A stretch of 64,000 nucleotides of DNA, taken from NCBI RefSeq assembly GCF_001612665.1, contig NZ_BDAX01000002.1:806001-870000 (forward strand). The letters run 5' to 3'. The translations under genes and the position numbers were made by a program. Shown one piece after another: positions 8,980 to 43,478 of the stretch. The notes beneath the pieces were generated by a model. The model was given only the letters and a program-made list of their open reading frames with translations, ran no database searches and was not told the DNA's origin. Position 1 is the first letter of the stretch; each line of letters starts with the position of its first letter. Source of the DNA: Nocardia alba NBRC 108234 (GTDB lineage: Bacteria > Actinomycetota > Actinomycetes > Mycobacteriales > Mycobacteriaceae).

Positions 8980-8980
8980 G

Positions 8981-9844: not shown

Positions 9845-9853
9845 GTCGATCGA

Positions 9854-14425: not shown

Positions 14426-15534
14426 CTTTGCGCACCACGTTGGCCGCGGCCTTCTGTGCCGCCGCCGTGGCCGCATCGAGCAGCGGCTGCTCGATGACGG
14501 TGGCCCAGCTGCCGCTGCCCGAACCGGGCATCGGTGGGCCCGGCTATACCCTGCACGCCACCTTCCGGGACGCGCTCAACCTGCCCGATCGCGCCCACGT
14601 CAAGATCGGCGGCACCGATATCGGGATCGTCACCGGGATTTCGACGACGGCGTTCCTCGCCGATGTCGAGATGCTGATCCGCACCGATATCCAGTTGCCG
14701 CAGGGCACCACCGTGGAGCTGCGCCAGGCGACTCCGCTCGGTGACATCTTCGTGGCGATGACCCTGCCCAGCGCCGCGGAGGCCGGACCGCCGCTGCGCG
14801 AGGGCGCGACCATCGGCACCGAACTCACCGCATCCGCCGCCTCGGTCGAGCAGCTGATGATGTCGGTGTCGATGCTGATCAACGGCGGCGGACTCAATCA
14901 GGCGGCCAAGGTCACCTCCGAGCTCAATTCCATCTTCGCGGGCAAGGCACCCCAACTGCAGCACCTGGTCGGGGAGATGACCTCGGTCATCGCCGCGCTC
15001 AACGCCCGCACCGGCGACCTCGACGCGACGCTGTCCGGCTTGTCGGTGCTGACCGGCGAATTGGCCCGGCGCAAAGCCGAACTCGGCGCCGCGGCCGACA
15101 GCTTCCCGCAACTGATCGGGCTGTTCGCCGAGAACAACCAGGCCATCGTCGACCTGATCAACAAGGTCGCGGTGACCATGGACGCCCTCGGCGACTTCAG
15201 CGCGACCAACGGGCCGCAGTTCGTCAGCCTGTTCCAGAGCATCCAGAATCTGATGTCGGGCTTCGCCCAGATGGGCGATGACCTCACCGGCACGCTCGAT
15301 GGCCTGCACACCATCTACCCCCCGGTCATGAACACCATGCAGGGACCGACCCTGGCCGTCGGAGCGATCCTGTCCTACCTCGATGTCGGTGCGATCACCG
15401 ATCCGGCCGGCAGCCGCTGGCCCGACGGTACCGACGTGCCCGCGTTCATCGGCAGCATCACCGACGTGATCGCCAAGGTGACCGGGCGTCTCAACAGCAC
15501 ACCGAAGCCGCCGACCCAAGAGGGGCCCCGATGA
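14422..15534 (+). CDS. mceE: MCE-family protein E, lipoprotein
   Basis: A 370-residue subunit with a lipoprotein signal peptide ending in SSGC and an MCE domain near 45-125 (YTLHATFRDALNLPDRAHVKIGGTDIGIVTGI). It corresponds to the lipoprotein position (LprK-like) of mycobacterial Mce operons. It overlaps its neighbours by four bases on each side. Confidence 0.9.
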   Translation: MTLRTTLAAAFCAAAVAASSSGCSMTVAQLPLPEPGIGGPGYTLHATFRDALNLPDRAHVKIGGTDIGIVTGISTTAFLADVEMLIRTDIQLPQGTTVELRQATPLGDIFVAMTLPSAAEAGPPLREGATIGTELTASAASVEQLMMSVSMLINGGGLNQAAKVTSELNSIFAGKAPQLQHLVGEMTSVIAALNARTGDLDATLSGLSVLTGELARRKAELGAAADSFPQLIGLFAENNQAIVDLINKVAVTMDALGDFSATNGPQFVSLFQSIQNLMSGFAQMGDDLTGTLDGLHTIYPPVMNTMQGPTLAVGAILSYLDVGAITDPAGSRWPDGTDVPAFIGSITDVIAKVTGRLNSTPKPPTQEGPR

Positions 15535-16715
15535 ATTCACCGTTGTGGGAGTGGCTGGTTCGCCGTCGCATCGCGGTCGCCAATGCCGGCCTGGTCGTCG
15601 TCCTGCTGTTGGGCAGCCTGTATCTGGGCGGCGCGGTCCTGCGGATCGACCCGACGAGCAAGAACTACGTCGTCACCGTCGAGCTGGCCCTCTCGGGTGG
15701 ACTCGCCAAGGGCGGCGACGTGACCTTCCGTGGCGTTCGGGTCGGGCGGGTCGATGATGTGCGGGTCGCCGGAGACGGGGTCGCGGCCGTGGCCGAGATC
15801 GAGGAGGGCACCCGGATTCCGGTCGGCGGCACCGTCGCCGTCGCCCGCTTGTCGGCTGCCGGCGAGCAGTACCTGGACTTCCGCCCCGTCACCGACAGCG
15901 GACCGTATCTGCGCGACGGCTCTGTCGTCGCCCGCGCGGACACCGCCGTTCCGGTGCAGGTGCAGTCGGTGCTGGCGAATATGTCGGGCCTGGTCAGCGG
16001 ATTGAATCCCGATCGGCTCAATGTCATCGTCAACGAACTCGACAAAGCGCTCGCGGGCGGACCGGACGGCCTGCGCAACATGATCTCCGGGATCAGTCGC
16101 GCGATGGCGGGTCTCAACGATCTGCTGCCACAGACCGAGCACCTGCTGCGCAATCTCGAGGTCATCGCCGAGACCACCTCGCACGCGCAACCCGACCTCG
16201 GCACTCTCACCAACTCGGGTAGTGCCCTCTTCCAGCAGTTCTCCGCGGCCGATGCCGAACTGCGGCATCTGCTCCAGGAGGGCCCGGGACAGCTGGCCAC
16301 GCTCGGGGGTTTCATCTCCGATACCCACAACCCGATCACGGACCTGGTGACGAACTTCGTCGCGATCACCCGGGCCGCGAAATTGCGTCAGCCCGCGATC
16401 GAGCTGTTGTTCCCGACGTTGAGCCGCTTCGCCGAGGCGGTCGGCATCCCGGCCCACGACAACGCCTTCTTCACGCTGGTGGACCCGTGGCCGCGACCGA
16501 CCTGCGACTACGACACTGTCCCGATCCTGCCCACCAAGGCCACCACCGATACCAGGGTGCGCCTCTACAACTACTGCGTCACCGACAACCCCGCGCTGCA
16601 GATCCGTGGGTCGGCGAACGCACCACGACCCGCCGGCCCCGACAACGGAGCGGGACCGCCGCCCGGTGTCACCGGTGACGAACTGTCCCAGCCCTCGGTG
16701 CCCGCACCCAGATAA
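15531..16715 (+). CDS. mceF: MCE-family protein F
   Basis: The last Mce subunit, 394 residues, with an N-terminal anchor (IAVANAGLVVVLLLGSLYLGG), an MCE domain at about 42-125 (VVTVELALSGGLAKGGDVTFRGVRVGRVDDV) and a proline-rich end. It completes a full A-F set, so this operon can encode a whole periplasmic tunnel. The Mce-associated gene follows 15 bases later. Confidence 0.92.
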   Translation: MNSPLWEWLVRRRIAVANAGLVVVLLLGSLYLGGAVLRIDPTSKNYVVTVELALSGGLAKGGDVTFRGVRVGRVDDVRVAGDGVAAVAEIEEGTRIPVGGTVAVARLSAAGEQYLDFRPVTDSGPYLRDGSVVARADTAVPVQVQSVLANMSGLVSGLNPDRLNVIVNELDKALAGGPDGLRNMISGISRAMAGLNDLLPQTEHLLRNLEVIAETTSHAQPDLGTLTNSGSALFQQFSAADAELRHLLQEGPGQLATLGGFISDTHNPITDLVTNFVAITRAAKLRQPAIELLFPTLSRFAEAVGIPAHDNAFFTLVDPWPRPTCDYDTVPILPTKATTDTRVRLYNYCVTDNPALQIRGSANAPRPAGPDNGAGPPPGVTGDELSQPSVPAPR

Positions 16716-16730
16716 GGAGAACGAAAAACG

Positions 16731-17333
16731 ATGACCAACGACGAAACATCCACCAGCACCGCACCATCGGAAGGGCAGGCGGACACGGCCGTTTCGACGA
16801 CGGCGACCAAAGCCACGTGGTGGGCGATGGACCGCAAGACCCTCGGCCTGCGCGGCGCCGCCGCGATCGTCCTCGGCGCCTCGGTGGCGACCTCGGTGTT
16901 CCTGTTCGTGGAGAACAAGAACAGCACCGATCTCCTCGACGCCCAGAAGCAGGCCCGCGAGGCCGCGTGCCACTACGCGCCCGCCTTGGCCGACTACGAC
17001 AGCAAGAACCTCGACACCTACTTCAAGGCTGTCCTCGCGGGCGCGACGGGTGACTGGAAGAAGCAGTTCGAATCCACCAGCACCGAGTTGCGCGACGCGC
17101 TCACCCAGGGTGAGGTCGTCTCCAAGGTCACCGATACGCAGTGCGCGCTGCGCGTCGGCGACGAGAACTCCGCCGAGGCGATCGTGGTGATCGGTACCAC
17201 CATCTCCAGCCTCGGCACCGACCACAAGGCCAAGCCGAGCCAGCTGTCGATGGTGTTCAACCTCCGCAATGACGACGGCCGCTGGCTCGTCGAGAAGGTG
17301 AATTCCCCGTTGACCTCACCACCCACCCCATGA
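16731..17333 (+). CDS. Mce-associated membrane protein
   Basis: A 200-residue protein with an acidic, low-complexity N terminus, one membrane helix at about 45-62 (AAAIVLGASVATSVFLFV), and an extracytoplasmic domain that includes YDSKNLDTYFKAVLAGATGDWKKQF, characteristic of Mce-associated (Mas) proteins. These are thought to stabilise the Mce complex in the envelope. AAGGAG precedes the ATG. Only one Mas gene is present, while many Mce operons have two or more. Confidence 0.85.
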   Translation: MTNDETSTSTAPSEGQADTAVSTTATKATWWAMDRKTLGLRGAAAIVLGASVATSVFLFVENKNSTDLLDAQKQAREAACHYAPALADYDSKNLDTYFKAVLAGATGDWKKQFESTSTELRDALTQGEVVSKVTDTQCALRVGDENSAEAIVVIGTTISSLGTDHKAKPSQLSMVFNLRNDDGRWLVEKVNSPLTSPPTP

Positions 17334-17373: not shown

Positions 17374-18663
17374 ATGACAGGCAAGATCATCGGGAACTCA
17401 CTGTCCCCGCGTAGAACGAAGGCGAAGACGACGAGCAAGCAGACAGACGACTCCCCCGCGGACGCGCCGACTCGCCAGGTCAGGCGCAGGCCGAAGAATC
17501 GTCGTGCCCAGATCGCGGCGGAGTCGGCCGCCGCCTTCGGCGCGCACGGCTACCACGGCGTCAGCATGGACGACATCGCGCGGCGCCTCGATATCAGTTC
17601 GACCGCGCTGTATCGGCATTTCCCGAGCAAATACGCGCTGTTCCGGGAGGAACTGCTGCGCTTGTCCGGGATAGCGCTGGGCGCGGTCGAGCTGCCCGCC
17701 GAAGCCGCCGACTGGACACCACGCCAGCGCGTCGATCACGTGCTCGACGCCATCATCGCCTTGACCATCGCCAATCGGCCGACCGTGGCGCTGGCACGCT
17801 GGGAGCGCCGCTACCTCGAGCCGTCGGATCTGCAGGAACTCACCGATCAATTCACCACGGCCATCGCCACGCTACGCAGGCTGATCGGCGAGGTACGACC
17901 CGAGCTGGACGGTCGGGACCGGGCGGTTCGCGCGGTCTCGATCTTCGCTGTGGTGAGCAGCATCGGCGACCACCATGCCACCATTCCGGCGAAGGCTCTC
18001 ACCCGGCTGCTCCATTCGACCAGCTGGGCATTGATCGAGGCTGATCTGCGCGGGCTCGACAGCACGAAGAGCACCGCCGGCCAGGGCGAGCAGCCGCAGC
18101 CGTTCAAGCACGATCTGCTGCTGGGCAAGGCCGTCGACCTGTTCCATGAGCGCGGCTATCCGAATGTCAGTATGGAGGACATCGCCGCCGCCGCGGATCT
18201 GTCGGCGGCATCGGCGGTGTATCGCTACTACCGGAGCAAGAGCGACCTGTTGGTCGCCGCGTTCCGGCGCGCCGCAGACCGGGTCTCGGGAGCGATCGCG
18301 CCCGCGGTGGCCGCCGCGGACACTCCCGCCGAGGCGCTGGGCACCCTGATCGAACTCTATGTCGCCGGTTCGTTCGCCGATCGCGCACTGACCTTCGTCT
18401 ACTACGCCGAGTTCAGCCATGTCGACCAACCGGACCAGGTGACGCTGCGCCATCTGCAGCAGTTGATCATCACCGAATGGGCGAAGCTGGTGGTGGAGAC
18501 CAAACCGGAATTGTCCATCGGCGAGGCCCGAATTCTCGTGCACGCGGCCTTCAGCCTCGTGGTCGACCTCGGACGCACCTTCGGCGACCATGGAATCAGT
18601 CCGCAGGAGACCGTGATCGGCTTGCTGGAAGCGATTCTGCTCGAACCGTCTGTGCCTCGGTAG
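17374..18663 (+). CDS. Tandem-TetR transcriptional regulator, Mce3R-like
   Basis: A 429-residue protein with two complete TetR units. The first helix-turn-helix is near 58-90 (MDDIARRLDISSTALYRHFPSK) and the second near 265-300 (MEDIAAAADLSAASAVYRYYRSK), each followed by a helical ligand domain. This double architecture and length match Mce3R, the repressor of the mycobacterial mce3 operon. The gene lies 40 bases after the Mce-associated gene, so it may be part of the operon and autoregulate it. The basic N-terminal extension of about 45 residues is variable. The ligand is unknown. Confidence 0.88.
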   Translation: MTGKIIGNSLSPRRTKAKTTSKQTDDSPADAPTRQVRRRPKNRRAQIAAESAAAFGAHGYHGVSMDDIARRLDISSTALYRHFPSKYALFREELLRLSGIALGAVELPAEAADWTPRQRVDHVLDAIIALTIANRPTVALARWERRYLEPSDLQELTDQFTTAIATLRRLIGEVRPELDGRDRAVRAVSIFAVVSSIGDHHATIPAKALTRLLHSTSWALIEADLRGLDSTKSTAGQGEQPQPFKHDLLLGKAVDLFHERGYPNVSMEDIAAAADLSAASAVYRYYRSKSDLLVAAFRRAADRVSGAIAPAVAAADTPAEALGTLIELYVAGSFADRALTFVYYAEFSHVDQPDQVTLRHLQQLIITEWAKLVVETKPELSIGEARILVHAAFSLVVDLGRTFGDHGISPQETVIGLLEAILLEPSVPR

Positions 18664-20269: not shown

Positions 20270-22189
<1,920 letters not shown>

Positions 22190-22217: not shown

Positions 22218-23789
22218 ATGTCCACAGAACCCCTGCGCTCGCGCCGCAATCACTGGATGAACCAGGTGGCGATCCATGCCACCACCATCCCGGACTCGCC
22301 CGCCGTGCGTTACCTCGGCAAGACCACCACCTGGGGCGAACTGCACTGGCGGGTAGGGCGGTTGGCCGACGCACTCGAACGCCGCGGTGTCCAGCCGGGC
22401 GACCGCGTGATGATCCTGATGCTCAACAACACCGAGTACCTCGAGTCGGTGTTCGCGATCAACACACTCGGTGCTATCGCGGTGCCGGTGAACTTCCGGC
22501 TCACGCCGACCGAACTCGCCTTCCTGGTCGCCGACAGCGGCTCCGCGGTGATCATCACCGACGCGGTGCTGGCCCCGCTCGCCGCGGCCGTCGCCGCCCA
22601 GTCCCCCGACCTGCGTACCCGTATCGTGGTCGGCGCACCGACCGACGACGGTGTTCTCGGTTACGAGGACCTCATCGCGGAGAACGGCGAACCGCACACG
22701 CCGCGCGATATCGCCGAGGACACCGCCGCGCTGATCATGTACACCTCCGGCACGACCGGAAACCCCAAGGGCGCTGTCCTGACCCACCTGAACATGAGTT
22801 CGCAGGCCCTCACCTGCATCCGCGCGATGCGCTACAGCGCCGACGACATCGCCTTCTGCGCGTCACCGCTGTTCCACATCGCCGGATTGGGCAGCGTTGC
22901 TTCGTGTTTCGTCCTCGGGGCGTTGACGGTGATCCATCCGCTCAAGGCCTTCGACGCGGGCGAAGTGCTCGATGCCTGGGAGGCAGAGCGCGCGACCTCG
23001 GTGTTCCTCGTGCCCGCCCAGTGGCAGGTGGTGTGCGCCGATCCGACTGTCGCACAGCGTGATCTGCGACTGCGGGTGATCAGCTGGGGCGCGGCTCCGG
23101 CTTCCGACACCGTGCTGCGGGCCATGGCCGAGACCTTCCCGAACGCGCTCAATGTGGCGGTCTTCGGGCAGACCGAGATGTCGCCGATCACCTGCGTGCT
23201 CGACGGCGAGGACGCGATCCGCAAGCTCGGTTCCGTCGGCAAGCCGATCCCGACCATCGCCACCCGCGTGGTCGATGACGAGATGAACGACGTCGCCCAG
23301 GGCGAGATCGGCGAAATCGTCTATCGTGGACCGACTTTGATGCGCGAGTACTGGAACAACCCACGCGCGACCGCGGACTCGTTCGCGGGCGGCTGGTTCC
23401 ACTCCGGTGACCTCGTCCGCGTCGACGAGGAGGGCTTCGTCTACGTCGTCGACCGCAAGAAGGACATGATCATCTCCGGCGGTGAGAACATCTACTGCGC
23501 CGAGGTGGAGAACGTGCTGTTCGCGCACCCGCGAATCAGAGAGGCCGCGGTGATCGGCCGCGTCGACGAGAAATGGGGCGAGGTCCCGGTCGCGGTCGTC
23601 GCCGTGGAGGACGCCGACGACATCAGTCTCGCCGACCTCGAACCGCACCTCAACACCCATCTCGCCCGCTACAAGCACCCGAAGGACCTCGTGGTGGTCG
23701 ACGCGCTGCCGCGTAACGCGGGTGGCAAGGTGGTCAAGCCCGAACTGCGCAAACTGTACGGCTCGACGGGCTTGACGCTCACCAGCTGA
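22218..23789 (+). CDS. Acyl-CoA synthetase (AMP-forming), FadD5-like
   Basis: A 523-residue adenylate-forming ligase. The P-loop is MYTSGTTGNPKG near 176, the adenine motif is near FGQTEMSP, the conserved aspartate is in GWFHSGDLVRVDEEGF, and the hinge and C-terminal lysine are in DRKKDMIISGGENIY and NAGGKVVKPELR. It would convert a free carboxylic acid to its CoA thioester. AGGAGA precedes the ATG. It ends the operon begun by the nitronate monooxygenase gene. Mycobacterial mce1 also has a FadD5 gene nearby, which fits a role in processing imported acids. Confidence 0.9.
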   Translation: MSTEPLRSRRNHWMNQVAIHATTIPDSPAVRYLGKTTTWGELHWRVGRLADALERRGVQPGDRVMILMLNNTEYLESVFAINTLGAIAVPVNFRLTPTELAFLVADSGSAVIITDAVLAPLAAAVAAQSPDLRTRIVVGAPTDDGVLGYEDLIAENGEPHTPRDIAEDTAALIMYTSGTTGNPKGAVLTHLNMSSQALTCIRAMRYSADDIAFCASPLFHIAGLGSVASCFVLGALTVIHPLKAFDAGEVLDAWEAERATSVFLVPAQWQVVCADPTVAQRDLRLRVISWGAAPASDTVLRAMAETFPNALNVAVFGQTEMSPITCVLDGEDAIRKLGSVGKPIPTIATRVVDDEMNDVAQGEIGEIVYRGPTLMREYWNNPRATADSFAGGWFHSGDLVRVDEEGFVYVVDRKKDMIISGGENIYCAEVENVLFAHPRIREAAVIGRVDEKWGEVPVAVVAVEDADDISLADLEPHLNTHLARYKHPKDLVVVDALPRNAGGKVVKPELRKLYGSTGLTLTS

Positions 23790-26795: not shown

Positions 26796-26813
26796 TATGT
26801 TAATGCCTATTCC
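26796..26813 (+). promoter_or_regulatory. TAWGTTAM-N4-NATTCN element, copy 10
   Basis: TATGTTAATGCCTATTCC. The core read on the minus strand gives TAACAT, a possible -10 for the PucR gene starting at 26708. The stretch from here to 26978 holds no gene I can support. Confidence 0.6.
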
Positions 26814-26978
26814 AGCAGGCGTGGGATCGTTCGGCATCGAAAGTCGGTCGCTTCGCAACACCGCAGCGCGATCCCCGCGCTGGTAGCGGCATCGATCAGA
26901 CCCGCTGAGCTGAGGATCGACCGGCCACCAGCAAACCGGCCGCAGTACGAGACCCTTCGAGCGGACTACTTCAATCCC

Positions 26979-27019
26979 GAGACAGGAGGCGGCGCTGGAG
27001 TTAAGTTACTGACAATTCA
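26979..27019 (+). promoter_or_regulatory. Promoter with TAWGTTAM-N4-NATTCN element, copy 11
   Basis: GAGACA at 26979-26984, a 17-bp spacer, then TAAGTTACTGACAATTCA at 27002-27019, 73 bases before the haemoglobin start. A short inverted repeat (TGCCG/CGGCA) follows in the leader. Confidence 0.7.
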
Positions 27020-27562: not shown

Positions 27563-29209
27563 TCACCGCGGATCGGCGCTCCCGAGCTTGCGACGCAGCA
27601 GTTTGCCCGTGGCATTGCGCGGCAACTCGTCGACGAACACCACATCCCGTGGAACTTTGTGGCGCGCGAGGGTCGCTTTGACATAGTCCTTGATCTGTTG
27701 CGCGTCGCAGGACGCATCCGGTGCGAGCACAACGAACGCGCGCAGGCGTTTGCCGAAGTCGGGATCTTCCACCCCCACGACCGCCGCCTCGAGGATGTCG
27801 GGTCGCTCCACGAGCAGGTTCTCGACCTCGAGCGGAAAGACGTTCTCCCCGCCGGAGATGATCATGTCGTCGTCTCGACCGTCGATGAACAGCCTTCCCG
27901 CCGCGTCGAAATGGCCGATATCGCCGCTGGACTGCATGCCGTCGACAGTCTCCTTACCCGTACCGTCGGTGTAACCGCCGAAACTCAGTGCGCTGGCGAC
28001 GAAGATGGTGCCGACAACACCCGGCTCGGTGACCCGACGGCGCTGGTCGTCATAGATCGCGACCCGGCAGCCCACGGGTGGGCGACCGACGGTGCCCGGC
28101 GCTTCCCGCATATCGGACGGCGTGGCGACGGCCGCCACCGCCACCTCCGTCGAGGCGTACAGGTTGTAGAGCACCTCACCGAACGCCCGCGCGGTACGCC
28201 TGCTCAGGTCGGGCGAAATAGAGGATCCGGCCGCGAAGATCACCTTCAGCGAGGACGTGTCGTATTCGGCCAGCACGGGTTCCCCCAGATCGACGATGCG
28301 CTGCAGCATCGTCGGCACCAGCACCAGCGTGCCCGCGCGATGGTGTTCGATATCGGCCAGCGTGCGACGCGGGTCGAACTTGCGCTGCTGCAAGACGATC
28401 GCGTTGCCCAGCGCCCAGCCCAGAATCAGCTGTGACAGACCGGTGCCGTGAAACGCCGGCGCCGCGAGCACGGTCGCACTCGCCTTCGGCAAGGGGATCC
28501 GGTCGAGGAACTGCGCCGATTGCAGGGGCGAAACCTTGCCTCGCGGCGCACCCTTGGGTGTGCCGGTAGTGCCGCTGGTGAGTACCACGATCCCGCCGGG
28601 CCGGGTAGGAGCCTTCGGCGGGCGAGTGGTTCGACCCGCTCGAACATCGTCCAGAGTGGGTCGTCCGTGGTTCACCCAGCCGTCGTTCGAGGTCAGAATC
28701 ATTGGTAACTTATCGGCCAATTCGCCGAAGCGGTCGACGAACTCGGCGTCGAGCAGGACCGCACCCACGTTTTCGCGTTCCGCCACCGAAACGAGCTGCG
28801 GGCCAGCCATTCCCGTATTGAGCAGCACGATACGCGCACCCAGCTTGCCCGCCGCGAGAAGCGACAACACCATCCCCCGATGGTCGCGACACAGCGCGGC
28901 CAGCACGGTGTCACTCGCGATCCCCCGCGCGACAAGGCCGTTGGCCACCGCGTTCGACAGGCTGTCGAGCTCCGCGAAGGTCAACGACCCCTGCTCGTCG
29001 ACGATGGCGGTGGCAGCGCCGTCACTGCGCGCAGCGTGCGCGAACGCGGTGACCACCGGACCGAGCACCGCCGCGTCCCTTGCCGTGCGCACCAACTCCG
29101 CCGGGTGCTGGAGTTCGATCGCGCCGCTTCTACGCAGCACGCCGACGGCGGACAGGCCGTCAGCCACCGTTCTGACCAGGGCTGCAGGCATGCTCGGGAT
29201 CGCCGACAT
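27563..29209 (-). CDS. AMP-dependent acyl-CoA ligase
   Basis: A 548-residue adenylate-forming enzyme. The P-loop is LTSGTTGTPKG near 228, the second motif is LYASTEVAV, SSGDIGHFDAAGRLFIDGRDDDMIISGGENVFPLEVE covers the hinge, and the catalytic lysine lies in NATGKLLRRKLG. It probably makes acyl-CoA from a free acid. The ATG at 29209 follows GGAGGT; an in-frame GTG lies two codons upstream. It faces away from the MpaB-family gene at 29408, with one TAAGTTAC element between. The coding region also contains a copy of the element at 28695-28712 with a rare TTA leucine codon. Confidence 0.9.
   Translation of the reverse strand: MSAIPSMPAALVRTVADGLSAVGVLRRSGAIELQHPAELVRTARDAAVLGPVVTAFAHAARSDGAATAIVDEQGSLTFAELDSLSNAVANGLVARGIASDTVLAALCRDHRGMVLSLLAAGKLGARIVLLNTGMAGPQLVSVAERENVGAVLLDAEFVDRFGELADKLPMILTSNDGWVNHGRPTLDDVRAGRTTRPPKAPTRPGGIVVLTSGTTGTPKGAPRGKVSPLQSAQFLDRIPLPKASATVLAAPAFHGTGLSQLILGWALGNAIVLQQRKFDPRRTLADIEHHRAGTLVLVPTMLQRIVDLGEPVLAEYDTSSLKVIFAAGSSISPDLSRRTARAFGEVLYNLYASTEVAVAAVATPSDMREAPGTVGRPPVGCRVAIYDDQRRRVTEPGVVGTIFVASALSFGGYTDGTGKETVDGMQSSGDIGHFDAAGRLFIDGRDDDMIISGGENVFPLEVENLLVERPDILEAAVVGVEDPDFGKRLRAFVVLAPDASCDAQQIKDYVKATLARHKVPRDVVFVDELPRNATGKLLRRKLGSADPR
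28695..28712 (-). other. Intragenic match to TAWGTTAM-N4-NATTCN
   Basis: On the minus strand TAAGTTACCAATGATTCT, a full match inside the ligase coding frame (codons for Lys-Leu-Pro-Met-Ile). It may be chance or an internal site. Confidence 0.4.
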
Positions 29210-29292
29210 GGACACCTCCGAAGGATTCGAGTACTCGGGACAGCCGATCGGAACCTACGCACCGACAGCCGATGGCGATCGTATCCCTAGTC

Positions 29293-29310
29293 GGAACCAT
29301 TAGTAACTTA
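29293..29310 (-). promoter_or_regulatory. TAWGTTAM-N4-NATTCN element, copy 12
   Basis: On the minus strand TAAGTTACTAATGGTTCC, 84 bases before the ligase start at 29209 and 97 bases before the divergent MpaB-family gene. Confidence 0.6.
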
Positions 29311-29407: not shown

Positions 29408-30265
29408 ATGACCCGTGCAGCGAGGGCTGGTCGGCCGCAGGACGTCTCGGACGACATCGCGCGCAGGCACCGCTACCTCAACGGCGTCGGCGCCCTGCTC
29501 GGCGGCCCGGCGAACGTGATCATGCAGCTGAGCCTGCCGCCGGTGGGTCGCGGCGTGGTGGAGAGCGTCGTCGAATCGGGCAGCTACGCCACGCGTCCGG
29601 CCAAGCGCGGCCGAACCACGCTCACCTACCTCGCGGTGGCGATGATCGGAACCGACGAGGACCAGGCCGCCTACCGTGCCGCGGTGGGCACCGCGCACCG
29701 GCAGGTGCGCTCGGGACCGCAGAGCCCTGTTCGGTACAACGCCTTCGACCCTCAGCTGCAACTGTGGGTGGCCGGCTGCCTGTACCGAGGTGTCGTCGAC
29801 ACGATGGACCTGCTCTACGGCGGCATGAACGAGCAGGATGCCGAACAGATGTATCGCGATGCCGCCAGGTTCGGGACAACGCTGCAGATGCCGGCCGAGC
29901 TGTGGCCCGCCGACCGCGCGGCCTTCGAGCGGTACTGGGACTCGATGGTCGGTGAACTGTCCTTCGACGACGAAGTCCGCACCTACCTGCTCACCTACGT
30001 GGTCGGGCTGGCGGCATGGAGTCGAGGCGTACGCGTGGCGTTCGGCCCGGTGAATCGCTTCTTCACCACCGGGTTTCTGCCCCAGCGGTTCCGCGACGAG
30101 ATGGGCCTGCGGTGGAGTCCGCGCAGGCAGCGCGTGTTCGAGATCGTGATGCGCACGACGGGCCGACTGCTCGAGGTGTTGCCGGACGCTTGGCGAGCAA
30201 AGCCCTTCGAGCGCTACCTCGACGACATGCGTGAGCGTCGATCACAGGGCAAGAGCCTCATCTGA
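29408..30265 (+). CDS. MpaB/Lcp-family (DUF2236) oxygenase-like protein
   Basis: A 285-residue protein, clearly the closest relative in the window of the one at 3654-4652: both share KRGRTTLTYLAVAMIGTDED-type and VRYNAFD-type segments, the histidine in TAHRQVR, and FFTTGFLPQRFRDEM. No signal peptide is seen. GGAGG precedes the ATG. The following ligase gene begins 10 bases after its stop, so the oxygenase-like protein and a CoA ligase are probably made together. An attractive but untested role is intracellular oxidation of isoprenoid fragments. Confidence 0.8.
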   Translation: MTRAARAGRPQDVSDDIARRHRYLNGVGALLGGPANVIMQLSLPPVGRGVVESVVESGSYATRPAKRGRTTLTYLAVAMIGTDEDQAAYRAAVGTAHRQVRSGPQSPVRYNAFDPQLQLWVAGCLYRGVVDTMDLLYGGMNEQDAEQMYRDAARFGTTLQMPAELWPADRAAFERYWDSMVGELSFDDEVRTYLLTYVVGLAAWSRGVRVAFGPVNRFFTTGFLPQRFRDEMGLRWSPRRQRVFEIVMRTTGRLLEVLPDAWRAKPFERYLDDMRERRSQGKSLI

Positions 30266-30275
30266 GCCACCTGTG

Positions 30276-32213
30276 ATGAGGCGAGAGTTGCATCGGGCCG
30301 GATCCTCCGTCGCTTTCCCCCATCGCTGCGGCGAATTCGTCGTCACCCTGCCCGAGGCATTCCAGGCGACGGTGGCGCTGGGTGGGGACGCGACAGCGTT
30401 GCGCAGCCACGACCGAACGACGCGGCTCTCCTGGCGTCGATACGGCGACGCGGTGCGTGACATCGCGTGCGGTCTGCTCGAGTTGTCGGTCGAAAAGGGT
30501 GAGACGATCGGCCTGATGTTGGCGAACAGACCGGAATTCCACCTGGTCGATACCGCCGCCCTGCATGTCGGCGCCACGCCCTTCTCGATCTACAACACGA
30601 TGGCTCCCCAGCAGATCGCCGAGGTGTGTGCCAACGCCCAGAACCGGATCATCGTCACCGAGAGCCGGTTCCTGCCCGTTCTCCGGCAAGCCGGGGTGAC
30701 GTTCGAGGTCGTCATCTGTATCGACGATCCGATCCGCGGAACGCTCTCGCTGGACCGGCTCGCCGGAATGAGAACGCAGGCACACCTTTTCGAGTCGGTG
30801 TGGCGCGATGTCCGGCCCGACGATCTCGCGACCATCAGCTACACCTCGGGGACGACCGGCTCACCGAAGGGGGTGGAGTTGTCGCATGCCAACATCCTGG
30901 CCCAATTGGTCGGGCTAGCCGACCATCTCCCCGTGGGTCCGCGAGATCGGATTCTGTCGTACCTGCCCGCCGCCCATATCGCGGACCGGGTCACCGCCCA
31001 CTACGGCGCGATGGTCCGCGGCGTCGCGGTCACGACACTGCACGATCCCACGAGGTTGGCGGAGGCGATGTCGGACACGCGCCCGACGATCGTGTTCGGG
31101 GTTCCGCAGGTGTGGCAGAAGACCCGATCCGCGATCGAGCGTGGCATCGAGACTGCGCCGAGCGCCCGGGTCCGCAGGGTCGGCCGGTGGGCGCTGGCCG
31201 TCGGACAGCGCTGCGCGAACATGCGCAGCGAAGGCGCCACGCCCGGGCCGTGGCTGCGGCTTCGGTACCGGTTGGCCGATCGGTTGGTGCTGCGGCGGGT
31301 GCTGCGGGCAGCGGGCCTGGACGCCGTGCGTTTCGCGGTGTCGGGTGCCGCACCACTGTCCGAGGACGCGGCACAGTTCTTTCCGGCGTTCGGCATTGCG
31401 CTGACCCAGGTCTGGGGGCTCACCGAGGCCACCGGCGTCTGCACCACCACCTCGTCGGCCACGGTCTCGACGAGTTCGGTCGGAACGCCGGTAGCCGGCA
31501 TCGACATGCGACTCGGTATCGATGGCGAGATCTTCGTGCGCGGACCGGCCGTCATGCGCGGCTACCACCGGGACCCGTCGGCCACCTACCGGGCCATCGA
31601 TGCCGAGGGCTGGTTGCGGACCGGGGACCTGGGCGAGATCGATACCGAAGGCGGATTGCGCATCGTGGGGCGCAAGAGCGAGATGATCATCACCGATGAG
31701 GGTGACAACATCTCGCCCGCCATCATCGAGAACGCCATCGCCGCCGCGTCCTTCCTGATCGGCCATGTGATCGTTGTCGGCGAGCAGCGGCCCTACCTGA
31801 CCGCGCTGATCACGCTGGACGAGGAGGCCATCGCCGCCGATGCCCGCCTGGCGCAGGTCGAGCCGGCGGCGCTCGAGGTCCTCTGTCAGCGACCCGGGGT
31901 TCGCGAAGCGGTGTCCGAGGCGGTTCGCGCCGTGAATTCCACGGTATCGGGACCCGAACAGGTCCGGCGATTCATATTGCTCGACCATGTCTGGCGACTC
32001 GGCAGCGCAGAAGTTACTCCCAAATCCAGCCTTCGGCGCCGGTCGATCGAGCAGAACTACGCCGCGCAGATCGATTCGCTCTACCATTCCTCGCCACCGA
32101 TCAACGCCATTGACGTGACCATTACGCCGGCACCACCGAAGCCCGCATTCCACACCCAGAAGAACTCGCGCACCGAGCCGTATTCGGCCCACTGGCCGTC
32201 ACGCGGACTGTAA
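30276..32213 (+). CDS. Long-chain acyl-CoA synthetase (AMP-forming), FadD15-like
   Basis: A 645-residue ligase of the long fatty-acyl-CoA synthetase subgroup, with P-loop ISYTSGTTGSPKG near 190, LTQVWGLTEATG, GWLRTGDLGEIDTEGGLRIVGRKSEMIITDEGDNISP, and a late lysine in VTPKSSLRRRSIEQNY. The ATG at 30276 is the most plausible start; GTG at 30231 would overlap the preceding gene. The last 30 residues are not family-like. It probably activates long or branched acids. The stop is followed by an AT-rich gap of 57 bases before hemC. Confidence 0.87.
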   Translation: MRRELHRAGSSVAFPHRCGEFVVTLPEAFQATVALGGDATALRSHDRTTRLSWRRYGDAVRDIACGLLELSVEKGETIGLMLANRPEFHLVDTAALHVGATPFSIYNTMAPQQIAEVCANAQNRIIVTESRFLPVLRQAGVTFEVVICIDDPIRGTLSLDRLAGMRTQAHLFESVWRDVRPDDLATISYTSGTTGSPKGVELSHANILAQLVGLADHLPVGPRDRILSYLPAAHIADRVTAHYGAMVRGVAVTTLHDPTRLAEAMSDTRPTIVFGVPQVWQKTRSAIERGIETAPSARVRRVGRWALAVGQRCANMRSEGATPGPWLRLRYRLADRLVLRRVLRAAGLDAVRFAVSGAAPLSEDAAQFFPAFGIALTQVWGLTEATGVCTTTSSATVSTSSVGTPVAGIDMRLGIDGEIFVRGPAVMRGYHRDPSATYRAIDAEGWLRTGDLGEIDTEGGLRIVGRKSEMIITDEGDNISPAIIENAIAAASFLIGHVIVVGEQRPYLTALITLDEEAIAADARLAQVEPAALEVLCQRPGVREAVSEAVRAVNSTVSGPEQVRRFILLDHVWRLGSAEVTPKSSLRRRSIEQNYAAQIDSLYHSSPPINAIDVTITPAPPKPAFHTQKNSRTEPYSAHWPSRGL

Positions 32214-32270: not shown

Positions 32271-33200
32271 ATGCCCAGTTCACGCAGGATTCGGATATCG
32301 ACACGCTCGAGCCCGATGGCAGTTCATCAGGCCGAGCAGGTGGCCGCGGGACTCGGTCGGCTCGGCGCCGCCACCGAGCTGATCAAACTCACGACGGCTG
32401 GTGACCGGTGGATGGGCGACCTGGCCGCGCTCGGTGGCAAGGGCGCGTTCGTCAAGGAAATCGACGGTGCGTTGCTCGCCGGCGAAGCCGATCTGGCGGT
32501 GCACTGCTTGAAGGATATTCCCGGCGATGTCCCCATTCCACCGGGTTTGACCTTCGCCGCCTATATGGCCCGCGAAGATGTGCGTGATGCCGTGATCAGC
32601 CGCAGCGGTGCCGCACTGTCCGATCTTCCTGTCGGCGCGACCGTCGGCACGAGTTCCGTCCGCCGAACGGCGCAACTGCGAATCCGTCACCCGCACCTCG
32701 ACATTCAGCCGTTGCGCGGCAACGTCAACACCAGACTGGCTCGCCTCGACGAGGGGCATTTCGACGCGATCGTCGCCGCGGTATCGGGCCTTCGACGGGT
32801 CGGCCTGCAGCACCGGATCACCGAGACCCTCACGATCGAGCACATGTGCCCACCGATCGGCGCCGGCATCATCGTGCTGCAGTGTCGCGAGGACGACGAC
32901 GAGGTGCGCCGGCTCACCGCCCAGTTGGACGATCCGGGCACCCGCCGCCAGGCCACCGCCGAACGAGCGATGCTGCACGCCCTGCAAGGACACTGCAACT
33001 CACCGATCGCGGGCCTGGCGACCGACGCCCCCGGCAGTCGGATCATGCTGCGGGGCAGCGTCTTCTCCCCGGACGGATCACGATGGCTCGACGCCCAGGA
33101 CTGGGGCGTCGACGACGATCCCGAGGCCTTGGGATTCTTCATCGGGTCGAACCTGCTGCGCCAGGGCGCACGTCGATTGATCGACGAAATTCCGCACTGA
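32271..33200 (+). CDS. hemC: Hydroxymethylbilane synthase (porphobilinogen deaminase)
   Basis: A 309-residue enzyme that joins four porphobilinogen units into hydroxymethylbilane in haem synthesis. Asp82 in VHCLKDIP corresponds to E. coli catalytic Asp84, Cys242 in LQGHCNSPIAG holds the dipyrromethane cofactor at the same number as in E. coli, and the arginine-rich GTSSVRRTAQL loop is present, so it looks active. It follows a CoA ligase gene and is not near hemA, hemB or hemD here, so it is probably a second, dedicated copy. Lcp is a haem b enzyme, so extra haem supply is a reasonable role; this is inference. Confidence 0.92.
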   Translation: MPSSRRIRISTRSSPMAVHQAEQVAAGLGRLGAATELIKLTTAGDRWMGDLAALGGKGAFVKEIDGALLAGEADLAVHCLKDIPGDVPIPPGLTFAAYMAREDVRDAVISRSGAALSDLPVGATVGTSSVRRTAQLRIRHPHLDIQPLRGNVNTRLARLDEGHFDAIVAAVSGLRRVGLQHRITETLTIEHMCPPIGAGIIVLQCREDDDEVRRLTAQLDDPGTRRQATAERAMLHALQGHCNSPIAGLATDAPGSRIMLRGSVFSPDGSRWLDAQDWGVDDDPEALGFFIGSNLLRQGARRLIDEIPH

Positions 33201-33338: not shown

Positions 33339-33356
33339 TAAGTTAACGTCCATTCT
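33339..33356 (+). promoter_or_regulatory. TAWGTTAM-N4-NATTCN element, copy 13
   Basis: TAAGTTAACGTCCATTCT, 73 bases before the WhiB-like gene. A weak TGGCAA -35 stands 17 bp upstream. A CGTTCG/CGAACG inverted repeat lies in the leader. Confidence 0.7.
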
Positions 33357-33429
33357 AGATATCGATGAGGCACACCGGATGTACCGCGTTCGGCCTTCGT
33401 CGACAACGAACGATCACCAGGAGAACCCG

Positions 33430-33753
33430 ATGGCTGCTGATATTCGACGACCTGATCGCAGCGCGCGTGTCGTTCTCCCCGAGCCGACCGCCGCGGCGTG
33501 GGACTGGCAGTTGACCGCCCGATGCAGGCAGATGGAGCAGGAACTGTTCTTTCCGAGCGCCGAGGAACATCTCGGATCGGTCCGCACCCAGGTTCTGCAC
33601 GCCAAGACGATCTGCCGAGCCTGCCCGGTACTCACCCATTGCCGCGCCTATGCGATCGAGGCCGGTGAGACACACGGCATCTGGGGCGGAATGACCGCGT
33701 TGGAACGCGCCAGGCACCGGCGTCGGACTTCTTTGCGCGGCACCGACACTTAG
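33430..33753 (+). CDS. WhiB-family iron-sulfur transcriptional regulator
   Basis: A 107-residue Wbl protein with the four iron-sulfur cysteines Cys32, Cys62, Cys65 and Cys71 (C-X29-C-X2-C-X5-C), the GIWGG turn near 83, and a basic C-terminal tail (RARHRRRTSLR). Such proteins sense O2, NO or redox state and usually act with the main sigma factor. AGGAG precedes the ATG. It is the first gene upstream of the TetR-SDR-lcp region and has its own copy of the repeated element. Subfamily assignment is not possible by eye. Confidence 0.9.
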   Translation: MAADIRRPDRSARVVLPEPTAAAWDWQLTARCRQMEQELFFPSAEEHLGSVRTQVLHAKTICRACPVLTHCRAYAIEAGETHGIWGGMTALERARHRRRTSLRGTDT

Positions 33754-35417: not shown

Positions 35418-35435
35418 TAAGTTAACCATGATTCT
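35418..35435 (+). promoter_or_regulatory. TAWGTTAM-N4-NATTCN element, copy 14
   Basis: TAAGTTAACCATGATTCT, 49 bases before the thiolase remnant and in the same relative orientation as copy 3 before the intact thiolase. Confidence 0.65.
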
Positions 35436-35498
35436 CGCAATTTCGGTAAGGGCAGCTCAGAACCCTCGCGGCGAGGCGGATTGTCACGCATCGAGCTC

Positions 35499-35516
35499 TA
35501 TGTTAAGGACAATTCT
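35499..35516 (+). promoter_or_regulatory. TAWGTTAM-N4-NATTCN element, copy 15
   Basis: TATGTTAAGGACAATTCT, in the 647-bp gap before lcp. No clear -35 at 17 bp. I see no supportable gene between 35517 and 35897. Confidence 0.6.
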
Positions 35517-35897: not shown

Positions 35898-35939
35898 TGG
35901 ACACGGCGCCCCTCCCCCTGTTAAGTTACTCACTATTCT
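35898..35939 (+). promoter_or_regulatory. lcp promoter with TAWGTTAM-N4-NATTCN element, copy 16
   Basis: TGGACA at 35898-35903, an 18-bp spacer, then TAAGTTACTCACTATTCT at 35922-35939, 77 bases before the lcp start. In the leader CTAGGCCG pairs with a later CGGCCTAG, a perfect 8-bp inverted repeat. Confidence 0.75.
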
Positions 35940-36016: not shown

Positions 36017-37258
36017 ATGGATAGACTCAACAGGCGCAATGCGCTGAAGGCCGGCGGAATGCTCGGCGTTGCCGGCACCCTCGGGTTGGCTGCGACGGCG
36101 CGGGCTGAACCGTGGACCTGGTCACCCGAAGGATCGGTGGCCGGCTCCGGCTCCGGTCTCGACCCGATGACGGTATGGGATCCCGAAGCCGACCAGCTGG
36201 TCGCCGGACTGATCGATCGCGGCGAGGTCCCCAAGGTCAACGAACTGTTGCGGACCTGGACCAGGAACGGTCAGGCACTGCCCGCCGGCCTGCCCGCGGA
36301 GTTGCGCGACTTCATGGAATACGCCCGCCGACTGCCGCAGTGGACCGACCCGGGCAAGTTGGATACCGCGATCTCGTTCAACAAGAAGCGCGGCCTGTAT
36401 CTCGGAGTCCTGTACGGATTCGCCAGCGGCATGATGAGCACCGTCATCCCGAAGGAGGCGAAGGCCGTCTATTACTCCAAGGGCGGCCACGACCTCAAGG
36501 ACCGTATTACCAAAACCGCGAAGCTCGGCTACGACATCGGCAGCTCGAATGCCTATGCCGCGGACGGGGAAATGATCGTCACCTGCGTCAAGACTCGACT
36601 GGTGCACGCGGCGGTGCGCCATCTGCTGCCGCAATCCCCGCACTGGGTGCACTCCGCCGAGGAGGACATCCCGATCAGCCAGAACGACATCATGGTCACC
36701 TGGCACAGCCTGCCGACGACGGTGATGAAGCACCTCAACAACTGGAAGGTGCCGATCCCGACACACGAATCGGAAGCCTTCCTGCATTCCTGGCAGGTCG
36801 CCGGTCACCTGCTCGGCGTCCGTGACGAATACATCCCCAAGTCCTGGCCCGACGCCAATTCCCAGGCGGCGCAGGTACTCGATCCCATCATCGCGGCGAC
36901 CCCGGAAGGCGCCAAGCTGGCCGACCGGCTCCTGAGCCTGGGCGCGAATATCGATCTGTCGATTCTGAGCAAGCCGATTCTCGGCGCGTTCACTCGGTTC
37001 CTGCTCGGCGACAAGACCGCCGACGGGCTCTCGATTCCGCGGGAACCGGTCTGGGATCCGCTGCTCCAGTTCGCGTGGGGTCCGTTCATCGCCGTGCGCG
37101 AGGGCGCGCTCAGCATCGTCCCGCCGCTCGAGGATCCCTACTGGCTCCTCGACGAATTCCTGCGCAAGGCCGCGCTGATCTACCTGGCCGAACTGCGCAT
37201 GCCGATCAGCATCGAGATCCCGACGATGAACCGCGACATGAGCCAGCCACCGCGCTGA
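36017..37258 (+). CDS. lcp: Latex clearing protein (rubber oxygenase), Tat-exported
   Basis: A 413-residue haem dioxygenase that cleaves cis-1,4-polyisoprene outside the cell into oligo-isoprenoids with aldehyde and ketone ends. A twin-arginine signal (NRRNALKAGG) and hydrophobic stretch end near ARA-EP at 30. The residues essential in Streptomyces K30 Lcp (Glu148, Arg164, Lys167, Thr168, haem ligand His198) are all present one position earlier: Glu147, Arg163, Lys166, Thr167, His197 in RLVHAAVRHLL. Length matches Lcp (about 400). The ATG at 36017 follows AGGAG at 36005-36009; the ATG at 36002 lacks a site. It is served by the promoter at 35898-35939. Its direct neighbours are not the oxiAB genes seen in Streptomyces. 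Confidence 0.93.
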   Translation: MDRLNRRNALKAGGMLGVAGTLGLAATARAEPWTWSPEGSVAGSGSGLDPMTVWDPEADQLVAGLIDRGEVPKVNELLRTWTRNGQALPAGLPAELRDFMEYARRLPQWTDPGKLDTAISFNKKRGLYLGVLYGFASGMMSTVIPKEAKAVYYSKGGHDLKDRITKTAKLGYDIGSSNAYAADGEMIVTCVKTRLVHAAVRHLLPQSPHWVHSAEEDIPISQNDIMVTWHSLPTTVMKHLNNWKVPIPTHESEAFLHSWQVAGHLLGVRDEYIPKSWPDANSQAAQVLDPIIAATPEGAKLADRLLSLGANIDLSILSKPILGAFTRFLLGDKTADGLSIPREPVWDPLLQFAWGPFIAVREGALSIVPPLEDPYWLLDEFLRKAALIYLAELRMPISIEIPTMNRDMSQPPR

Positions 37259-37328: not shown

Positions 37329-37607
37329 ATGCGTAACACCCTTCGTATCGCCGCGGCCTCGGTCGCGGTAGCCGGTCTCGTCGGAACCGCGGCGGGGACG
37401 GCGGCAGCCGCGACCGGCTCGTCGGCAGTGGACTCCGGCTCGGCCGCCGCCAGCTCGGCCGTGGAACTGGCCGGACGCGGTGACATCATCGGAACGCTCG
37501 TCCTGCTCGTCGTCACTCCGATTTTCATCGTGACGGACACCCTCTGCGAACTGGCCCCCGCCGTCGGTTCGGCGAGCCCGTGCACGCCGGGACCCAAGCA
37601 CTACTGA
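37329..37607 (+). CDS. Small secreted or membrane-bound protein downstream of lcp
   Basis: A 92-residue protein with a clear signal peptide (NTLRIAAASVAVAGLVGTAAG, cleavage likely after AAAA near 28), a serine/alanine-rich stretch, a hydrophobic segment (GTLVLLVVTPIFIV) and a C-terminal tail with two cysteines that could form a disulfide. AAGGAG precedes the ATG. It lies 70 bases after lcp in the same direction. I recognise no family. Export and position suggest a helper at the cell surface during rubber attack, but this is inference. Confidence 0.7.
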   Translation: MRNTLRIAAASVAVAGLVGTAAGTAAAATGSSAVDSGSAAASSAVELAGRGDIIGTLVLLVVTPIFIVTDTLCELAPAVGSASPCTPGPKHY

Positions 37608-41193: not shown

Positions 41194-42522
41194 TCAGGCT
41201 GCGCGATGTGTCGTGCGCGCCGGACGTTCGCTGCTGTGACCGGTCACCGAGGCCCTGATCGGTCGCCCGAACAGGACCCGGAGTACAGCCGACACAAGGG
41301 CACCGAGCCCCCGGCACCCCGCGGGCAGCGCGAGCACGCTGCGCACCGTGCGCGTGTCCGACGGTGTCACCGCCACGCCCGCGAATCGGTCGGCGAGCCA
41401 GTTCAGGCTCAGCGGCGTGGACAGCGGCAGCAGCGAAAGGTGCTCGCTCGCCCGATCACGCAGGTAGGTCACGTGCGCGCCCTGCTCGCGGTAGCGCCGC
41501 ACGAGCGCGTCGATATCGGCCACCGCGATGATCTGATCGTGCACGGCTTGCACCACCAACAGCGGCACCGCGGGCGCGCGGTCCCCCAGCGTGAGGTCGG
41601 CGAAGACGGCCAGCATCGCCTCCATCGCGAGCAACTCGGCGATGGGGGTGCCACTGTGCCGGTCGACGTTGTAGCGGGCCAGCCGCAGGACCGCGGCGCC
41701 GGTCGTCGACTCCGCGGCTTTGTCGAGCAACGCACGACCCTCGTCGCTGAAATGGGTCACGACCAGTTCTTCGAACGCCGGATACACCCGGCGCAGCGCG
41801 GCGACGACGAGCGTCGGCAGGCCCGCGTGCAGGCCGCCGTTGAGTCGATGGAAGGTCGAGACCAGATCGCCCACCGGGGAGCCGAGCACGGCGCCGACGA
41901 TGTCGAGTTCGGGCGCGTAGGTGGGCGCCATCTCCGCGGCCCACGCCGTGGCCAAGCCGCCGCCGGAGTACCCCCACAGCCCGACTTGCGCCGACGGATC
42001 GAGCCCGCCGGGCTCGAACGCCAGTGCCGCGCGAATGCCGTCGAGTGCGCGGTAGCCCGGTTCACGCGGTGCGCCCCACGCGCCGAGCATGCCTTCGTGA
42101 TCCGGGATCGAGATCGCCCAGCCCCTGGCCAGCGCATCGGCGAAGCACAGCAACTCGACGTGGACGAAGGTGCCGACCGCGCGGGAGCCGCGGCGCAACG
42201 CGTAGGACGGGAATGCCCGCGGCGCGATGGCGTCGATCGCGCACTGGAACGACAGCAGGGGGGCGCCGGGCGCGACACCGCCCATCGGCGCCACCACGGT
42301 GGTGACGGACGCCTCGGGCACACCGTTGAGATCGGTGGTGCGATACAGCAACTGCCAGGCCCGCACCTTCATCCCGATCACGCCGAACGCGGCCAGTTCC
42401 ACCGGCCGCCAACGCAGGATCGTGCCCTCGGTGAGACGCTCGAACCCGGGTCGCGGCACGAAGAACGGATCTTCGTCCGGGAGCAGTGCTCGCGTGGGAG
42501 CGGACCAGCTTTCGGCCCTCAT
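41194..42522 (-). CDS. LIP-family lipase-like alpha/beta hydrolase
   Basis: A 442-residue protein of the secretory-lipase (LIP) type. The nucleophile is in WGYSGGGLATAWA near 165, the acid is in VVQAVHDQIIAVAD, and the histidine in ASEHLSLLPL. FFVPRPGFERLTEGTILRWRPV near the N terminus matches family members. No signal peptide is visible, so it may act inside the cell. The ATG at 42522 overlaps the stop of the diiron gene. The upstream open frame is an artefact of the overlapping gene. A lipid ester is the likely substrate. Confidence 0.82.
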   Translation of the reverse strand: MRAESWSAPTRALLPDEDPFFVPRPGFERLTEGTILRWRPVELAAFGVIGMKVRAWQLLYRTTDLNGVPEASVTTVVAPMGGVAPGAPLLSFQCAIDAIAPRAFPSYALRRGSRAVGTFVHVELLCFADALARGWAISIPDHEGMLGAWGAPREPGYRALDGIRAALAFEPGGLDPSAQVGLWGYSGGGLATAWAAEMAPTYAPELDIVGAVLGSPVGDLVSTFHRLNGGLHAGLPTLVVAALRRVYPAFEELVVTHFSDEGRALLDKAAESTTGAAVLRLARYNVDRHSGTPIAELLAMEAMLAVFADLTLGDRAPAVPLLVVQAVHDQIIAVADIDALVRRYREQGAHVTYLRDRASEHLSLLPLSTPLSLNWLADRFAGVAVTPSDTRTVRSVLALPAGCRGLGALVSAVLRVLFGRPIRASVTGHSSERPARTTHRAA

Positions 42523-43478
42523 GCGACCCTGCGCGCGGGTTCGCTGCGGTAGCGCGAGGCGGGTCCGTCGATGCCGAGCAGCTGCCACACGCGGTGGGCG
42601 ACCGGATTCATCAGACCGATATCGGTCACCAGCGCGCGGACATCGGTGAAGACGTCCCGCTTGATGTGCCGCGAACCGGGACTCGCCCAGTACGCCTCCC
42701 GCATCACCTCGGCCGGGATGTCGAACTTGTCGACGAATTGCCGGGGCGGTGTCGCGATCATCGACAACATCACCCGCATCGCGATCGGGAACGCCACCGA
42801 CAGCACCGATTTCGAGATCGGATGCATCGACGGCACGGCGCGGTGGAGGTATTCGTGCGCGAAGGAGATGTGGCGGGCTTCCTCGGCCACATGGATCTGC
42901 ATCACCCGTGCCACCATAGGATGCAGGTCGGCACCACCGCGCAGCAGCGACTTCTGCAGGTGGTCGATCGGCTCCTCGCCACCGAGGATCAGGGTGAAGA
43001 ACAGTTCGGGGAAGTATTTCACCGCGGGCCAGATGATCATCGTCAGCGTGCGATCGATGCTGCCCATGCCGATCACATCGCGATAGCCGATGCGATTGAT
43101 CATCTCCTGGAACATCATCGTGTGGTTGCACTCTTCGGCGGCCTCGTGGGTGACGTAGCGGAACTCCGGGTCACCGTTGGGCACCGAGATCAGGTACTGC
43201 ATCAGCCCGCGGATCAGCAGCTGCTCGAAGTCGATGCCGACCTTGGCGATACCGGCCTGGCGCCACATGCCCATCGCGATCTGCCGTTCGACCGGCTGCG
43301 CCTTGTACCAGGGGTGGCGGCCGAGCGGGTCCTCGTCGGGCATGATCCAGCGTGGGTCGTCGGAGTGCACGGCGAACTCGGGCGAGTCCCAGTCGATGTC
43401 GACATAGGGATCGAAGCGTTTGGTCACCGAGCCTTCGGACAGGCTCTGCAGGACCTCGTGGTAGCTGGACAGCGTCAT
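42519..43478 (-). CDS. Diiron oxygenase, AurF/PABA N-oxygenase-like
   Basis: A 319-residue helical protein with ferritin-like metal sites in EAAEECNHTMMF and HVAEEARHISFAHEYL, the EExxH pattern of AurF-type diiron oxygenases. It carries no export signal. GAGGAG precedes the ATG. A palindromic operator (TGGTACCGGCAGTACCA) lies 38 bases before the start, and a TetR gene is directly upstream in the same direction. It leads an operon with the lipase-like gene and probably the PhaC-like gene. Many actinobacteria have such enzymes of unknown substrate. Confidence 0.8.
   Translation of the reverse strand: MTLSSYHEVLQSLSEGSVTKRFDPYVDIDWDSPEFAVHSDDPRWIMPDEDPLGRHPWYKAQPVERQIAMGMWRQAGIAKVGIDFEQLLIRGLMQYLISVPNGDPEFRYVTHEAAEECNHTMMFQEMINRIGYRDVIGMGSIDRTLTMIIWPAVKYFPELFFTLILGGEEPIDHLQKSLLRGGADLHPMVARVMQIHVAEEARHISFAHEYLHRAVPSMHPISKSVLSVAFPIAMRVMLSMIATPPRQFVDKFDIPAEVMREAYWASPGSRHIKRDVFTDVRALVTDIGLMNPVAHRVWQLLGIDGPASRYRSEPARRVA

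Follow-up and report, generated by a model that had tools for sequence, protein, structure and literature searches.

A latex clearing protein gene of Nocardia alba that probably belongs to a lipid-uptake and breakdown regulon

Does the open reading frame at 36017–37258 in a 64,000-nucleotide stretch of Nocardia alba NBRC 108234 DNA (assembly GCF_001612665.1, contig NZ_BDAX01000002.1, positions 806,001 to 870,000; hereafter the window) encode a genuine latex clearing protein (Lcp), and does its position near a cluster of lipid genes carry any meaning? An original prediction, made from the sequence letters, had answered the first part in the affirmative and had named the organism a likely rubber degrader. 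Two features underlie that claim:

36017 to 37258, plus strand: lcp, rubber oxygenase, 413 aa (ORF translation, phmmer, residue mapping, alignment, fold match)
36017 to 36106, plus strand: Tat signal peptide, residues 1–30, with RRNAL and ARA (motifs read off the translation)

In phmmer comparisons with PDB sequences, residues 1–406 of the product matched residues 1–405 of Lcp from Streptomyces sp. K30 (LcpK30, 5O1L) at E 3e-145, with a further match to 5O1M (E 2.9e-136); Pfam recognised PF09995 (E 1.2e-15), and an NCBIfam scan of the protein matched no family. An in-frame alternative ATG is present at 36002, 15 bp 5' of 36017, but directly after it comes a GAGGAG ribosome-binding site, well spaced for 36017, which makes 36017 the better start. 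The Tat-type leader claimed for the protein can be read from the translation as R6-R7-N-A-L10 followed by A-R-A at residues 28–30, set here against the RRxxLx and AxA criteria applied to Lcps in the Discussion of PMC7413915. The AlphaFold model (mean pLDDT 67.4) gave three PDB fold matches at E ≤0.001, all of them chains of 5O1L or 5O1M (55–56% identity; TM 0.77–0.78 by query length), the best being 5O1L at 55% identity. The structural comparison with LcpK30 that had been proposed as a check therefore bears out the fold, yet the placement of E147 comes from the sequence alignment, since the model is weak (pLDDT <50) at residues 139–159 around it.

From residue 33 to 212 the alignment with LcpK30 is gapless with an offset of one, so that E147, R163, K166, T167 and H197 correspond to E148, R164, K167, T168 and H198 of the K30 enzyme, at the predicted spacing, and R194 and R201 to its R195 and R202; none of the seven varies in an alignment of 20 Lcps. 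According to the accessible text of PMC5522427, H198 is the proximal and K167 the distal haem ligand of LcpK30, activity is undetectable in R164A, 2% in T168A and 2–20% in E148 variants, and K167 is kept in only 59% of 495 Lcps; the roles in haem binding and cleavage that had been ascribed to these residues agree with this account. The N. alba protein retains the K167 equivalent (K166) together with the equivalents of E148 and of the near-invariant H198, R164 and T168 (roles from the accessible text of PMC5522427 and PMC6311187). Agreement of this kind, in overall match and in residues, is far beyond chance, and at the sequence level 36017–37258 is confirmed as a genuine, full-length Lcp. By the published LcpK30 mechanism, the product, a putative secreted b-haem dioxygenase, would cut poly(cis-1,4-isoprene) extracellularly to oligo-isoprenoid keto-aldehydes; H197 and K166 would bind the haem, R163 and T167 would act at the active site, and E147 would be the base. 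The enzyme itself is ordinary, one more member of a large known family: it has the same residues and the same fold as LcpK30, from which no special enzyme difference was found, and it resembles the Lcps of N. farcinica NBRC 15532 and N. nova SH22a by genus and enzyme family.

Whether the strain uses rubber is a separate matter. N. farcinica NBRC 15532 has an active Lcp that it needs for growth on polyisoprene (PMC9782182, accessible text), and N. alba carries a second Lcp (53% identity) as well as two remote homologues, with 14 PF09995 genes in the genome as a whole; both points favour the rubber-degrader reading, which is reasonable by analogy. In other species lcp is present in latex-clearing and non-clearing species alike (PMC6311187, accessible text). 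Lcp at ≥53% identity was found in 103 of 118 sampled Nocardia genomes, and a match at E ≤1e-30 in 104, one of which has a remote homologue only. With lcp types split by bit score and without a tree (≥654, 'window type'; ≤642, other type), window-type lcp (69–100% identity) was present in 76 genomes, and the best copy was of the other type (65–70% identity) in 27, two of these copies being partial.

The setting of lcp raises the second question; it includes a shared DNA element, a regulator gene and a small neighbour gene, none of which the original prediction had noticed. Its nearest part is the small gene immediately behind:

37329 to 37607, plus strand: small protein, predicted secreted, 92 aa, conserved downstream of lcp across many Nocardia

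The protein has a signal-peptide-like N-terminus. Its 19 profile-building members fitted no Pfam or NCBIfam family (best E 0.011 and 0.0076, respectively, to unrelated, scattered families), and structure prediction gave no usable fold (mean pLDDT 55.6). The profile found matches at E 0.001 in 69 of the 118 Nocardia genomes; as copies we counted the 56 above 50 bits, in 53 genomes, leaving out matches of ≤31 bits. A survey of 298 genomes of the order returned strong matches in five Nocardia genomes and weak ones in two others. On the same strand as lcp and 19–565 bp downstream of it lie 29 of the 56 strong copies, and 27 are unlinked (one shortly before lcp, and one at a contig end, where adjacency is not judgeable). 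The gene is present in 52 of the 76 window-type genomes and in none of the 27 other-type genomes; a single genome carries it while lacking lcp. The pairing of lcp and small can be read directly from the genomes.

N. salmonicida NBRC 13393 carries lcp in three copies (L048, L053 and L093; 87%, 91% and 53% identity to that of the window), the first two each with their own small gene, and window-like flanks only at the 91% copy. A truncated globin gene separates lcp and small in at least 9 of 53 related loci (L048, L049, L057–L060, L084, L088, L089), in most starting ~20 bp past the lcp stop (one copy Pfam-checked, Bac_globin); with this spread, and absent from the window, it was set aside as a general lcp partner.

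These 53 loci (51 from Nocardia, the others from Actinophytocola and Gordonia) and the window itself make up 54 loci, which fall into 28 contexts when joined at two or more shared flanking families. The small gene is their commonest recurring lcp neighbour: it is found in 15 of the 28 contexts, and the next families reach 4. It could be argued that an ordinary Lcp sits here in a meaningless setting, lcp and small having landed by a lipid cluster and the recurrence reflecting the common descent of one Nocardia lineage. Indeed, the window's flanks recur around lcp in only one named genome, N. salmonicida (L053), and the contexts are not fully independent, since 5 groups remain of the 54 loci once a single common flanking family suffices to join them. 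Nevertheless, the recurrence of small speaks against such an account, as do two properties of the DNA upstream of both genes: a shared element precedes lcp in many different settings, and 21 of the 27 unlinked small genes have their own same-strand copy of it (≤2 mismatches, ≤400 bp upstream; 14/15 and 7/12), with six lacking it. We therefore consider the meaningless-setting account improbable.

The element was recognised as the sequence GYTAAGTTAMT-N4-ATTC that lcp upstream regions have in common, with the asymmetric core TAAGTTAMT-N4-ATTC (TAAGTTAMTNNNNATTC). The core is found on the same strand within 300 bp upstream of lcp, at ≤2 mismatches, in 45 of the 53 loci (36 exact), and the remainder of the same loci contains 24 sites in 846 kb. 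In 73 loci chosen for their lcp or small gene, the real pattern had 82 sites, and 15 permuted patterns had 0 or 1. The eight lcp loci without it are L077, L079 and L082 (Nocardia), L093–L095 (Nocardia, 53% type), L090 (Actinophytocola) and L097 (Gordonia); likewise, no site was found within 19 kb around the second lcp (53%) of N. alba. Locus L175, which has the other lcp type, shows two sites in the same orientation (8185 and 8240), ~1 kb upstream of lcp, with another gene in between. In N. puris (L077, about 6500–8000) and a sampled relative (L174), lcp lacks the element, adjoins two TetR-like genes and is preceded by the near-palindrome GATACAAAATTTGTATC, an arrangement that may represent a change of regulator.

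The window contains 17 sites where 0.09 would be expected; they span 4763 to 35938 and end with the lcp site. Across the N. alba genome, 16 of 18 sites at ≤1 mismatch fall inside one 70-kb block (C2:771715-841938), and the reversed pattern has none. Sites found by pattern scan include the following, one of them listed with the gene that comes after it:

4763 to 4871, plus strand: pair of sites (2 and 1 mismatches) flanked by two PF09995 genes
7146 to 7498, both strands: four sites (1–2 mismatches; three plus, one minus) in the gap between thiolase and mce operon
20294 to 20331, plus strand: tandem pair of sites at a distance of 21 bp, one of them exact
26796 to 27018, plus strand: two sites, one exact
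28696 to 29310, minus strand: two sites (1 mismatch each), inside and just before a ligase gene
33339 to 33753, plus strand: site at 33339–33355 (1 mismatch), then a WhiB-family gene at 33379–33753
35418 to 35515, plus strand: two more sites ahead of lcp, with 1 and 2 mismatches
35922 to 35938, plus strand: the lcp site, an exact match to the element (TAAGTTAMTNNNNATTC)

The cluster genes among which these sites lie include the following:

3654 to 4718, minus strand: PF09995 paralogue c
4909 to 5853, plus strand: PF09995 paralogue d
5935 to 7137, minus strand: thiolase
8128 to 17333, plus strand: mce operon (first four ORFs Pfam-checked, the rest named by position)
20325 to 21386, plus strand: nitronate monooxygenase-like gene, whose true start is probably internal
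22218 to 23789, plus strand: AMP-binding acyl-CoA ligase
27563 to 29215, minus strand: AMP-binding acyl-CoA ligase
29408 to 30265, plus strand: PF09995 paralogue e
30231 to 32213, plus strand: AMP-binding ligase
32271 to 33200, plus strand: second hemC (porphobilinogen deaminase)

Besides lcp, the cluster has five PF09995 genes, all with a histidine at the H198 column and none with R164 or T168, as judged from a rough alignment. Of the two hemC copies in the genome, one is in the cluster and the other on contig C11; the cluster copy may help to supply haem to haem oxygenases. An AurF-type di-iron N-oxygenase gene (42519–43478, minus strand) lies downstream of lcp, past the cluster's last element.

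As the same element marks the mce operon, acyl-CoA ligases, thiolase and PF09995 paralogues, extracellular cleavage would be coupled to import and beta-oxidation, with lcp and the small gene controlled through TAAGTTAMT-N4-ATTC. Going by these site positions, lcp is probably part of a regulon for the uptake and breakdown of lipids, in keeping with the published proposal that Mce systems take up rubber fragments (PMC9070631 and PMC8235351, accessible text). In some Nocardia an mce cluster lies downstream of lcp (PMC9070631, accessible text); in the window, by contrast, the mce operon is 19–28 kb upstream and is tied to lcp by the common element.

Beyond N. alba, exact sites were present in 47 of 59 Nocardia genomes (95 in total, against one for the reversed control), and in a family-wide sample in 9 of 10 Nocardia and 10 of 141 other genomes, with the control pattern in 2 of 151. 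Of the 95 exact sites, 27 lie ≤400 bp from an lcp start and 2 equally close to a small gene, and 25 have a listed double-TetR gene within 30 kb; 41 are beside none of the three, which counts against the regulon reading. In 20 stretches chosen around sites, a homologue of a cluster gene stood at the site in 11: mce and/or PF09995 in L142, L143 and L149, a ligase or nitronate monooxygenase in L144, L147, L151, L154 and L157, and a thiolase in L144, L148, L159 and L161. In the other 9, no cluster homologue was recognised, or weak or more distant ones only.

Exact sites also occur in four sampled genomes without lcp (G007, G009, G043 and G045), which suggests that the regulon serves more than rubber. 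The same observation, together with the near-universal presence of lcp in Nocardia (103/118) and the general lipid genes around it, would suit a natural substrate other than rubber, namely another polyprenoid or branched lipid, with rubber cleavage as a side activity. This seems unlikely to us in view of N. farcinica, in which lcp deletion abolished growth on polyisoprene and polyisoprene raised the lcp transcript 21-fold (PMC9782182, accessible text), and of the retention of all five named residues in the N. alba enzyme.

We then consider what might read the element. The candidate in the window is

17374 to 18663, plus strand: double-TetR regulator, 429 aa, candidate element binder (two TetR_N stretches; homology)

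LcpR_B of S. coelicolor and ACTI_69510 of Actinoplanes OR16 are double-HTH TetR proteins with a site TATGTTAAT-N2-AAAATCACA before lcp (PMC8235351 and PMC7413915, accessible text), close to the Nocardia core. Among 246 genomes of the phylum, four had TATGTTAAT-N2-AAAATCACA at ≤1 mismatch, two of them exactly; both exact copies lie ~100 bp before an lcp (48% identity to K30), and close behind those two lcp genes is a double-TetR gene whose product has 31–32% identity to that of the window. The N. alba case differs from that of LcpR_B in that the double-TetR gene does not adjoin lcp in the window, and in that the element marks mce, ligase, thiolase and PF09995 genes as well.

The best match of the 17374–18663 product is Mce3R (E 8e-33, full length). 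Like Mce3R of M. tuberculosis (9B7Y), it is a double-TetR protein encoded next to an mce operon, and Mce3R binds asymmetric sites, the stronger one ~100 bp upstream (PMC11667970, accessible text). The two differ in that a tree separated Nocardia double-TetRs and LcpR_B-like proteins from Mce3R (100/100, with a long-branch warning), and in that none of six mycobacterial mce3R loci had the element at ≤2 mismatches, one showing an unconvincing site at 3 (L141). With 0/6 loci, and no 9-mer in five or more of the six upstream regions, Mce3R proper was rejected as a model for the element. Two other Nocardia double-TetR groups are equally close to the LcpR_B-like proteins in the same long-branched tree, and the N. 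alba genome has three double-TetR genes at ≥38% identity; from context and homology, we infer that 17374–18663 is the best candidate for the particular paralogue that binds the element. Co-occurrence of regulator and element was discarded as evidence, being uninformative with a double-TetR in 59 of 59 Nocardia genomes.

Genes of a second Nocardia double-TetR type are immediately preceded by a variant site, TAAGTTAACCACAATTC, in all three genomes looked at (L146, 6586; L183, 3731; L185, 3004 and 3023), a position which suggests that this type controls itself. The element could instead serve as a promoter for a special sigma factor, or be bound by a different regulator, such as a single TetR, PucR or WhiB protein: the cluster also codes for two TetR (2851–3582 and 33777), two PucR (24204 and 25518) and one WhiB (33379) regulators, and the double-TetR was picked by context and homology only. 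Against this alternative stand the agreement of the core with the published LcpR_B site (PMC8235351 and PMC7413915, accessible text), the presence of sites in both orientations and in tandem 21 bp apart, and the variant site of the second double-TetR type; distances to the small gene down to 22–37 bp in many loci also suit an operator better than a promoter. We find this alternative rather doubtful, if a serious one, and the element is, from its sequence and placement, likely a double-TetR operator, most likely of a regulator of the LcpR_B/Mce3R kind.

These findings suggest, as the best explanation and with a probability of about 0.7, that a secreted Lcp operates within a regulon of lcp, small, mce, ligase, thiolase and PF09995 genes governed through a double-TetR operator. 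The regulator would presumably bind the element as a repressor and respond to an inducer, and the Mce system would import the oligo-isoprenoids. A broader reading, which we put forward tentatively and regard as more likely wrong than right, is that polyisoprene or polyprenoid use forms one Nocardia regulon comprising Lcp, its small partner, Mce, PF09995 oxygenases and hemC under one operator code. In that case the small protein might be a dedicated Lcp partner, perhaps acting as a carrier or surface protein that passes products to the Mce importer; the intracellular PF09995 paralogues would be further haem oxygenases that shorten oligo-isoprenoids, with the second hemC helping the haem supply; and a single double-TetR operator code, about TAWGTTAMY-N4-AWTC, would govern the whole regulon.

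The steps that follow Lcp are poorly defined. Mce uptake after Lcp has already been proposed, and mce genes behind lcp have been noted in some Nocardia (PMC8235351 and PMC9070631, accessible text); a literature search, with most subscription papers outside its reach, found no wider lcp/mce regulon in Nocardia. What is new here is the regulatory setting and the small protein, as a variant of known lcp control, and the enzyme adds one family member. The common element names concrete candidates for the post-Lcp steps (mce operon, ligases, thiolase and oxygenase paralogues), provides a pattern to seek in other Nocardia genomes, and comes with an unnamed family of small, predicted secreted proteins tied to Lcp.
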